Source of the DNA: Anaeromusa acidaminophila DSM 3853 | GTDB lineage: Bacteria; Bacillota; Negativicutes; Anaeromusales; Anaeromusaceae | NCBI RefSeq assembly: GCF_000374545.1 | Contig: NZ_KB894583.1 | Coordinates: forward strand, 62,001-126,000 | Length of the DNA stretch: 64,000 bases | Reading direction: 5' to 3' | Shown here: piece after piece, positions 11,919 to 15,027 of the stretch | How the letters are laid out: each line of letters begins with the position of its first letter | How positions within the stretch are numbered: the stretch's first letter is position 1 | Translations under genes and position numbers: made by a program | The notes under the pieces: model-generated | What the model saw: the letters and a program-made list of their open reading frames with translations, nothing else | What the model was told of the DNA's origin: nothing | The model's database searches: none

Positions 11919-12176
11919 ATGAAAAAAATCACCATGTTTTTAGTAGCGGTATTTATGGTTGTCTTGACAGGAACAGCGGCAGTTCAGGCTAACCCGGCAG
12001 CCGCTCCGGCCTGGGAGGCATTGGAAGCAGGAGATCCGCCGCCACCGCCAGATTCGGACCCGCATAAACATAGAAAACATAAAGAGGAGCCGCCTAAACC
12101 GCCGCAAGAACCTCCGCATGCAGATGCTCCTAAGGATCAACCGGATCCAGGGCGGTCGGAACAACCGCGTCCATAA
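11919..12176 (+). CDS. Small exported proline-rich protein
   Basis: An 85-residue protein with a clear signal peptide (MKKITMFLVAVFMVVLTGTAAVQA, cleavage expected near residue 24) and a mature part made almost wholly of Pro, Asp, Glu, Lys and His (PPPPPDSDPHKHRKHKEEPPKPP). The mature part looks disordered; a His/acid pattern could bind metal, which is speculation. ATG 11919 gives the best spacing to AAAGGAG; ATG 11913 and TTG 11910 are alternatives. A terminator follows closely, so it is a single-gene unit. Confidence 0.7.
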   Translation: MKKITMFLVAVFMVVLTGTAAVQANPAAAPAWEALEAGDPPPPPDSDPHKHRKHKEEPPKPPQEPPHADAPKDQPDPGRSEQPRP

Positions 12177-12272: not shown

Positions 12273-12485
12273 ATGCAAAAAGGAATTTATCGGCACTTCA
12301 AAGGCGGTAAATATGAAGTGTTAGGGGTGGCAAAACATAGTGAATCCGGTGAAGAATTAGTAGTTTACAGGGCGTTATACGGTGAAGGAGGCCTGTGGGT
12401 GCGCCCCTTGCCCATGTTTCTTGAAGAGGTGGAATGGGAGGGGAAACGGCAGCCGCGGTTTGCGCTGGAAACAAGCACAGAGTAA
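12273..12485 (+). CDS. DUF1653 family protein
   Basis: A 70-residue protein matching the DUF1653 pattern: GIYRHFKGGKYEVLGVAKHSESGEELVVYRALYG, then a Trp-containing RPLPMFLEEV. The family is common in bacteria, often as a stand-alone small beta protein, and has no established function. CAAGGAGAAGG precedes ATG 12273. It lies 61 bp upstream of the exported prephenate dehydratase on the same strand and may share its transcript. Confidence 0.88.
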   Translation: MQKGIYRHFKGGKYEVLGVAKHSESGEELVVYRALYGEGGLWVRPLPMFLEEVEWEGKRQPRFALETSTE

Positions 12486-12546
12486 GAGAAGCGTATATCT
12501 AGTGCGATTAGAACGGAGATACTGCAGACAAAGAAAGGGTGGAATT

Positions 12547-13416
12547 ATGAAACGTACTTATTGGAGCTTGCTTTTAGTTTTATGTATATGCTTGCTTGCC
12601 CAGACTGCTTGGGCCAGTGTGAGTTATCTAGGACCTGCCGGAACCTATACGGAAGAAGCTACCATTCAATTTTTTGGCGCGCAGGAAGAAATGACACCGG
12701 TGAAAACAGTGGCGGAATCCCTGGCCTTGCTAAAAGCTGGTACATGCGCTTACGCAGTAGTGCCGGTGGAAAATACCATCGGAGGTCCAGTGTATCCGTA
12801 TGTAGACGCGGTATTAACGGATGCTGATTTCGCTATAGTGGGCGAGGTAAATTTGCCGATTCGGCAGACGCTGCTGGGGCTGCCAGGAACCTCTCTGCAG
12901 CAAGTGAAGACGGTTCTGTCTCATCCGCAGGGGATTGCCCAGAGTAAGGCTTGGTTGAAGGCCAACTTGCCGGAGGCTAAGGTGGCGGAAGTAAGCAGCA
13001 CCGCCGAAGGGGCTAAAAAAGTAGCCGAAGCGCAAGATCCTTCTGTGGCGGCGATTGCCGCTTCGCGCACTGCTGATGTGTATCATCTGGATATTCTAGC
13101 GCGTGATTTGCAATACACGGATACAAATGTGACCCGTTTTTGGGTTGTGGCGCTTAAAGGGAAAGCACTGCCTGCAGGAAAAAAAGGAGCCTTGGAGCTG
13201 CGCGGTTCTGCTGCTGATCTAGGAAAACTTTTGGTACGGTTAGAGAATGCGGGTTACCAAGCTGAGTTTGTACATGACAGGCCCTTGAAAACCAAGTTGG
13301 GAGAATATTTATTTGTGCTGGAGGTGAAAGCGGTTCAGACGAAGACGACCTTAGCGCAGGCTGTGCGGGGAACTGGCGGACAAGTACGAATTTTAGGCAC
13401 ATATGACGAAAAATAG
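12547..13416 (+). CDS. Prephenate dehydratase with ACT domain and an N-terminal signal peptide
   Basis: A 289-residue PheA-type dehydratase, which turns prephenate into phenylpyruvate on the route to phenylalanine. The catalytic domain spans residues about 25-205: SYLGPAGTYTEEA at its start, VPVENTIGG, and the TRF motif near residue 197. An ACT-like regulatory domain follows (about 210-289, with RPLKTKLGEYLFVLEV and VRILGTYDE). Unusually, the first 24 residues (KRTYWSLLLVLCICLLAQTAWA) are a classic signal peptide directly before the enzyme's normal start. ATG 12547 follows AAAGGGTGG, and no alternative start would remove the signal. Export is therefore predicted; activity outside the cytoplasm is inference. 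Confidence 0.88.
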   Translation: MKRTYWSLLLVLCICLLAQTAWASVSYLGPAGTYTEEATIQFFGAQEEMTPVKTVAESLALLKAGTCAYAVVPVENTIGGPVYPYVDAVLTDADFAIVGEVNLPIRQTLLGLPGTSLQQVKTVLSHPQGIAQSKAWLKANLPEAKVAEVSSTAEGAKKVAEAQDPSVAAIAASRTADVYHLDILARDLQYTDTNVTRFWVVALKGKALPAGKKGALELRGSAADLGKLLVRLENAGYQAEFVHDRPLKTKLGEYLFVLEVKAVQTKTTLAQAVRGTGGQVRILGTYDEK

Positions 13417-13454: not shown

Positions 13455-13483
13455 TTGACAAAAAATAGACAGGTTAGTATAAT
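13455..13483 (+). promoter_or_regulatory. Consensus sigma-A promoter of the riboswitch unit
   Basis: TTGACA and TATAAT, both perfect, are separated by 17 bp. Transcription would start near 13490 and run through the glycine riboswitch below. Confidence 0.85.
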
Positions 13484-13580
13484 CTAGACAATGTATTGAA
13501 AATTTAATACTCGTGTCCGTGTGAAGTTTGCGGGAGAAAGCAGTTTTGTTAGAAAATTCGCCAAACCGTAAATGGATGGA

Positions 13581-13708
13581 ACTCTGGAGAGCCCCTGCAG
13601 CAGCAGGGCGCCGAAGGGGCAAGTCGGCCGATTGCGACCGATGAAACTCTCAGGCAAAAGGACAGAGCCATAAGTGCATTTTTTTGGGGAACTAAAAATC
13701 TGCAACTT
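13581..13708 (+). ncRNA. Glycine riboswitch (single aptamer with 3' ghost stem)
   Basis: The stretch has the conserved glycine-aptamer pieces in order: ctctggagagcc, ggcgccgaaggggcaag, and aactctcaggcaaaaggacagag, with ctctg (13582-13586) and cagag (13663-13667) closing the P1 stem. Only one aptamer is present. Directly 3' of it, aagtgca (13672-13678) can pair with tgcaactt (13701-13708), as in the ghost stem of type-1 singlets. An intrinsic terminator follows at 13721, so control is probably by transcription termination. The regulated gene is an amino-acid-binding lipoprotein. Confidence 0.92.
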
Positions 13709-13720
13709 TGTGTGCTTTTC

Positions 13721-13752
13721 AGAGTCAAACGAGATGTTTGGCTCTTTTTCTT
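13721..13752 (+). terminator. Riboswitch expression-platform terminator
   Basis: agagtcaaac pairs over 10 bp with gtttggctct, followed by a T-rich run. It lies between the aptamer and the coding region, 110 bp before the start codon, as expected of an attenuator. Confidence 0.85.
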
Positions 13753-13863
13753 TTGGGAGAGCCGGAGAAGTCTGTTTTGCAGTGTCGCAAAAACGCTGAT
13801 GAAATAGGAATAAGCATAGGAACGGCTGAAGAAATCAGTGGTTTCGAGAGGGAGAGATGGTTT

Positions 13864-15027
13864 GTGAAGAACAAGGGAATCAAATGGATGGCCATAGTGA
13901 TGGCGGTACTCATGGTAGGTTTGGTCGCCGGCTGTGGCGATTCTAATTCCAAAGACGTTAAAATCGGTTTGTTAAATGAGATGACAGGCGGCAATGCCAC
14001 GTTGGGAACTTCCATTACCAACGGCGCTAAATTGGCCATCAAAGAAGCGAATGCTAAAGGCGGCGTTTTAGGCAAACAGATTCAAGGGATTGTTGCAGAT
14101 AATAAAAGTGAAGCCTCTGAGTCGGCTAATGCGATGACGAAATTGGCTTCGCAGGATAAAGTGGTCGCTGTGACCGGTACCTTCTCCAGCTCAAGCGCTA
14201 TTGCGGCTTCGAGCGTGGCGGAAGCTTCTAAAGTACCGTATCTGGCAGTCGGCGCTACGAACCCCAAAGTAACGGTAGATGAAAAAAGCGGCAAAGTGAA
14301 GCAATATACCTACCGCATGTGTTTTATCGACCCCTTCCAGGGAACTGTGGGCGCTAATTTTGCGTTGAACACGTTGAAAGTAAAAAGCGCCATTATGCTG
14401 ATCGACAACAGCAGCGATTACAGCAAAGGTCTGGCTGCTTTCTTTAAAGACGCCTTTACCAAAGGCGGCGGCAACATTCTGGCGGAAGAGTCCTATTTGC
14501 AGAAAGACCAGGATTTCAAAACCATTTTGACCAAGATTAAATCCTTGAATGCGGAAGTTATCTATGTGCCTGGTTACTATGAAGAAGTGGGTAAAATTGT
14601 TAAACAGGCTCGGGAACTTGGCATTACGGCTCCGATCCTTGGCGGCGACGGCTGGGATTCGCCTAAATTGGTAGAATTGGGTACTGCCGAAGCGCTGAAT
14701 AACACATATTTCACCAATCATTATTCTGTGGAAGATACTTCTCCGGCTTGCAAAACCTTTGTAGAAGCCTATAAAAAGGAATATGGCCAGATGCCGGATG
14801 CAATGGCTGTTCTCGGTTATGACGCAGCTAACGCTCTGATTGATGCGATTAAACGCGCCAATAGCTTAGAGCCGGATAAAATCCGCGCTGCCTTGGCTGA
14901 AACGAAAGACTTCCCGGCTATTACCGGCTCTACTACCTTGAATGCTACGCATGACGCGGTGAAGAGCGCAGTTATTATTGAAATGAAAGACGGCAAGCAA
15001 GTATTTAAAGCCAGCGTGAAGCCTTAA
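13864..15027 (+). CDS. LivJ-like ABC binding lipoprotein under glycine riboswitch control
   Basis: A 387-residue amino acid-binding protein of the branched-chain amino acid type. The lipobox is LVAGC with the lipidated Cys at residue 24; the mature part opens KIGLLNEMTGGNATLGTSI. The GTG at 13864 is chosen for its spacing to AGGGAGAG; ATG 13885 would shorten the signal. It is a close paralogue of the protein at 9327-10475. No membrane or ATPase subunits are encoded nearby. The leader's glycine riboswitch suggests that the transporter handles glycine or is tuned to glycine supply, although this family more often binds branched-chain or other amino acids. Confidence 0.93.
   Translation: MKNKGIKWMAIVMAVLMVGLVAGCGDSNSKDVKIGLLNEMTGGNATLGTSITNGAKLAIKEANAKGGVLGKQIQGIVADNKSEASESANAMTKLASQDKVVAVTGTFSSSSAIAASSVAEASKVPYLAVGATNPKVTVDEKSGKVKQYTYRMCFIDPFQGTVGANFALNTLKVKSAIMLIDNSSDYSKGLAAFFKDAFTKGGGNILAEESYLQKDQDFKTILTKIKSLNAEVIYVPGYYEEVGKIVKQARELGITAPILGGDGWDSPKLVELGTAEALNNTYFTNHYSVEDTSPACKTFVEAYKKEYGQMPDAMAVLGYDAANALIDAIKRANSLEPDKIRAALAETKDFPAITGSTTLNATHDAVKSAVIIEMKDGKQVFKASVKP

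Follow-up and report, generated by a model that had tools for sequence, protein, structure and literature searches.

At positions 12547-13416 on the plus strand of the window (the whole stretch of 64,000 nucleotides analysed here), a prephenate dehydratase (PDT) of the PheA type begins with what looks like a signal peptide, which raises the question whether such an enzyme is really exported and, if so, what it might do outside the membrane. PheC-type dehydratases and exported chorismate mutases are already known, and there is debate about why cells run the prephenate step beyond the cytoplasm (PMC10520331). The family described below adds PheA as a second enzyme type at that location. It occurs in different phyla, uses two kinds of export signal, keeps the catalytic residues and has its phenylalanine-binding motif replaced; it offers a separate system for testing the purpose of extracytoplasmic prephenate conversion.

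Signal peptide and domains of the window protein

The open reading frame starts with an ATG at 12547 and its stop codon ends at 13416 (289 amino acids plus stop), the same span in which a sequence-only reading had seen a complete PDT with an ACT domain and a signal peptide, and that description was borne out in each of its parts. A ribosome-binding-like site, AAAGGGTGG (12534-12542, plus strand), can be read directly in the sequence ahead of the ATG. Residues 1-23 (12547-12615), MKRTYWSLLLVLCICLLAQTAWA, form a predicted Sec signal peptide: the n-region is charged, the hydrophobic core reaches a Kyte-Doolittle mean of 3.65 over its best 10 residues, and cleavage is predicted after A-W-A, between AWA and S. 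The peptide contains no lipobox. Export signals were assigned throughout by rules on charge, hydrophobicity, cleavage site and lipobox, together with conservation.

The signal is followed by the PDT catalytic domain (residues 25-203; 12619-13155; PF00800, E=1.1e-55), in which all catalytic invariants are present and which includes the motif ENTIGG (residues 75-80; 12769-12786), where canonical PDTs usually have ENSxEG, and the catalytic TRF triad (residues 196-198; 13132-13140). PF00800 was the only Pfam match at E<=0.001, with no family of the solute-binding-protein type, and the NCBIfam equivalog NF008865 scored 218.9 bits (cut-off 219). Crystal structures of PDTs aligned with the entire AlphaFold model (pLDDT 93), the best match being 2QMX (Z 29.6, 29% identity). 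The C-terminus gave no match to the Pfam ACT model, even at E<=1; the secondary structure of the AlphaFold model and structural alignment indicate that an ACT-type domain is present there by fold (residues 213-288; 13183-13410). Within this predicted domain, HDRP (residues 243-246; 13273-13284) stands in place of the phenylalanine-binding ESRP.

A scattered clade of exported prephenate dehydratases

A search of the Negativicutes for the same architecture, which the sequence-only reading had proposed, yielded eight further genomes. Their PDTs are 48-59% identical to the window protein, giving nine carriers in six genera; in the search alignments their identity is 51-61%, and the remaining PDTs of the class reach about 28-36%. 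All eight relatives start with a signal peptide, diverged in sequence and conserved in character, and the signals of the Negativicutes members are of the signal peptidase I type. With an alignment as query (the window protein alone retrieved nothing), a scan of named genomes retrieved the family at about 40-51% identity from spirochaetes, Coriobacteriaceae, Lachnospiraceae, Ruminococcus, Erysipelotrichaceae and others. Sporomusa malonica likewise has a relative (L110). Outside the Negativicutes most of the exported PDTs have a lipobox with a low-complexity linker behind it, and signals of the signal peptidase I type occur in a few; three further members from the Coriobacterial class were also lipoprotein-like. 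Every examined family member with a complete N-terminus has an export signal, whereas a loose rule flagged one of 157 distinct canonical sequences, and that one is doubtful. Because the relatives bear signals and canonical PDTs are practically free of them, export is best regarded as a property of the family; judged from sequence, the signal peptide of the window PDT is genuine and evolutionarily conserved.

The exported PDTs also stand apart in phylogeny. In a tree of 28 exported and 128 canonical sequences they formed a single clade (support 90, and 97 when one diverged exported sequence, L071, was added), which identifies them as one monophyletic family on the sequences compared. The family is scattered among anaerobes from at least three phyla: it occurred in 9 of 300 genomes of the Negativicutes sample (plus the diverged L071), in 5 of 197 of the Coriobacterial class (two of them known beforehand), and in one of 291 genomes of the class of G691, namely the starting genome. 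A wide score gap separated it from canonical PDTs in each class sample. Matches on plasmids were all below 60% identity, the best lying around 32-35%, which is the canonical level, and plasmid carriage of the family was accordingly set aside. The exported PheA-type family is apparently undescribed, since the titles and text passages covered, which left subscription journals mostly outside their scope, held no PheA-type PDT described as exported, periplasmic, secreted or a lipoprotein.

Catalytic residues, likely function and alternative readings

The sequence-only reading had left open whether the protein is an exported enzyme or a repurposed sensor, and had suggested a check of the active site. 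The catalytic set proved intact in all 28 exported members (E75, N76, G80, E100, S125, H126, Q132, S151, N194, T196, R197 and F198), the TRF triad being conserved in the canonical set too, and dN/dS in the catalytic domain was 0.04-0.13 for four close pairs, with synonymous sites near saturation in some, values that point to strong purifying selection on this domain. Because of these two lines of evidence the enzyme is favoured and the sensor disfavoured; the invariant residues argue for an enzyme, but they cannot name its substrate. Around this conserved core the family has residues of its own: T77 (96% of exported members) and G79 (28/28) of the ENTxGG motif, Y85, G129, H243 and D244 of HDRP, and E259. 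Three of these are fixed changes beside catalytic residues, from E79 to G, T85 to Y and A129 to G.

The ligand motifs of the ACT domain have changed as well. The E-S of ESRP is replaced by H-D in 28/28 exported members, and the glycine of GALV is retained in only 7%, whereas ES[RK]P was present in 135 of 157 canonical PDTs and HDRP in 0 of 157. ESRP and GALV are described as motifs with which ACT domains bind their ligand (PMC10845154), and both phenylalanine-binding motifs are absent from the window protein, which has HDRP for ESRP and has lost the GALV glycine. Since the ACT fold is kept and the ligand motif changed, the effector is predicted to be lost or different, and the usual inhibition by phenylalanine would not be expected. 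The window protein thus resembles PheA-type PDTs such as that of Chlorobium tepidum (2QMX; PF00800 plus ACT) in full-length fold, catalytic residues and C-terminal ACT-type domain, but the family differs from them in being exported, in HDRP, in the mostly lost GALV glycine, in ENTxGG and in forming a separate clade.

The pathway context bears on the substrate. The window genome also encodes an ordinary PDT (L002; 279 residues) that lacks a signal peptide, and nearly every other carrier likewise has a cytosolic PDT. Nine of ten Negativicutes carriers gave no match to AroQ chorismate mutase; elsewhere among the carriers the AroQ domains mostly belong to P-protein-like frames of about 370-440 residues, many with a recognisable PDT part, and AroH-type matches were mostly short frames, read without their N-termini. 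Leaving aside two AroQ frames of 125-130 residues, the search of the carriers turned up no exported chorismate mutase, and a complete exported pathway from chorismate to phenylpyruvate, which we had considered, is therefore unsupported. In view of this negative result, and since a cytosolic PDT generally accompanies the exported one, leaked prephenate is the probable substrate.

We consider it probable, on this evidence, that the window gene encodes an extracytoplasmic and, as predicted, catalytically competent PDT that lacks normal phenylalanine control and acts on leaked prephenate. The PheA-fold PDT would be periplasmic in the diderm Negativicutes and mostly a lipoprotein in Clostridia-like bacteria, Coriobacteria and spirochaetes. 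Residues 24-289, the mature protein, would most likely act beyond the inner membrane, turning prephenate into phenylpyruvate, CO2 and water; the prephenate would probably have leaked from the cell or been released by lysed neighbours. The role of the enzyme would then be to salvage a labile intermediate that has leaked, or to dispose of it, and not phenylalanine synthesis as such. To our knowledge, exported enzymes for the prephenate step have so far come only from the PheC family, and we know of no ACT domain in PheC. Like the window family, PheC and the exported CM-CDT fusions are exported enzymes for the same reaction step that occur beside a cytosolic copy, but the window enzyme is of the PheA type, has an ACT domain and was not seen together with an exported chorismate mutase. 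PheC and the fusions are reported to lack feedback control, and their purpose is a puzzle (PMC10520331). The claim that exported enzymes of this kind belong to other folds was only half right, since PheC, which is described as derived from solute-binding proteins (PMC10520331), and the catalytic domain of PDT both have a fold like that of periplasmic binding proteins (PMC8192741, PMC10520331).

An exported PDT-fold enzyme might instead have another substrate, either turning over a different cyclohexadienyl acid such as arogenate or working as an amidase/acylase in the manner of GqqA; G79, Y85 and G129, fixed in place of E, T and A so close to the catalytic motifs, would fit such a shift, but every catalytic PDT residue is invariant, and we regard the shift as unlikely. 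GqqA of Komagataeibacter europaeus (7AM0) is a PDT-family protein with an ACT domain and a close structural match to the window protein (Z 27.2), and cleavage of acyl-homoserine lactones is reported as its second activity; the text of the GqqA paper does not mention a signal peptide (PMC8192741). In the structure alignment GqqA is only about 18-26% identical to the window protein. Many carriers, moreover, are Gram-positive anaerobes, in which acyl-homoserine lactones are not usual signals, and this speaks against these compounds as substrate.

Still less probable, in our judgement, is a binding or sensor protein in which the PDT domain and the altered ACT domain would bind, but not convert, an aromatic compound or amino acid outside the membrane. 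The relation of the PDT fold to solute-binding proteins would suit it, as would the lipoprotein anchoring in monoderms, which is typical of binding proteins, and binding proteins flank the gene in the window; an amino-acid ABC transporter adjoins the gene in two carriers (L066 and L070), but it is not shared by the others, and no conserved operon, transporter or sensor partner was found across the carriers' neighbourhoods. In the exported but diverged L071 (L071:9079-10002, minus strand) the catalytic triad is lost through the changes T196 to I and R197 to K, and H126 has become T; this lone sequence, taken from a genome that is incomplete, may represent a derivative without catalysis. The TRF threonine and the other catalytic residues are, however, invariant in the other 28 members. 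Finally, a mis-annotated N-terminus with a downstream start, which would make the protein an ordinary cytosolic second PDT has very little likelihood left and was rejected. The sequence-only reading had named as its telling signs either relatives that lack the signal or a start codon conserved further downstream, and this check came out in favour of the signal peptide: a GTG codon does occur at residue 25, but the ribosome-binding-like sequence precedes the ATG and none precedes the GTG, the relatives' signals are diverged in sequence with their character conserved and are mostly of the lipobox type in other phyla, and the exported clade differs from cytosolic PDTs throughout its sequence.

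Fusions, gene loss and gene neighbourhood

Two fusions were found that involve the exported PDT. In one (L113:7089-8810), a lipoprotein, the partner is an alpha-acetolactate decarboxylase (PF03306, E=3e-76), and in the other (L118:6882-8816) it is a signal-peptide-bearing HAD-type hydrolase. Exported alpha-acetolactate decarboxylase resembles the exported PDT in being a metabolic enzyme for a labile biosynthetic intermediate that bears an export signal, but it belongs to an unrelated family and pathway. It also occurs unfused with an export signal in the window genome (L227, contig C37) and in several other carriers. The decarboxylase is not enriched in carriers (4/9 against 99/291 in the background, p=0.5), so a statistical link with the exported PDT was dropped as not significant and the L113 fusion is a single hint. 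What it hints at is a broader theme, the handling of leaked metabolites at the cell surface: as a possible, rather doubtful generalisation, patchily distributed extracytoplasmic enzymes of anaerobes that cross phylum boundaries might process leaked intermediates (prephenate to phenylpyruvate, acetolactate to acetoin) for salvage, cross-feeding or signalling, and HDRP might adapt the ACT domain to a new effector. In another lipoprotein acetolactate decarboxylase (L229), the second domain resembles, by eye, a D-Ala-D-Ala dipeptidase.

The exported PDT has been lost within the genus of the window genome. None of three sister genomes (L266, L267 and L268) has an intact gene: two are without DNA equivalent to window positions 12489-13352 and the third without 12499-13242, and all three retain a 3' remnant of the gene beside the same flanks, adjoining DUF1653. 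The remnants beside the same flanks imply that the gene was ancestral to the genus and was then deleted, with two distinct breakpoints among the three genomes. Its deletion in three sister species indicates that the exported PDT is dispensable and not generally needed.

Both neighbours named in the sequence-only reading are present, a DUF1653 gene upstream (12273-12485) and a glycine riboswitch downstream (13574-13675), but they carry no functional weight: neighbourhoods are unconserved, and genomic context therefore gives no independent support for a function. The PDT gene and the riboswitch are separated by a perfect consensus sigma-70-type promoter (13455-13483); the riboswitch therefore appears to belong to a separate downstream unit, probably independent of the PDT gene. 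Further upstream, 11919-12176 encodes a small proline-rich protein whose start resembles a signal peptide and which matched no Pfam family. Downstream, the stretch 13455-13745 comprises the promoter, a single glycine riboswitch aptamer and a terminator-like hairpin, and 3' of the riboswitch follows the gene of a solute-binding protein of the branched-chain-amino-acid type (13861-15027).
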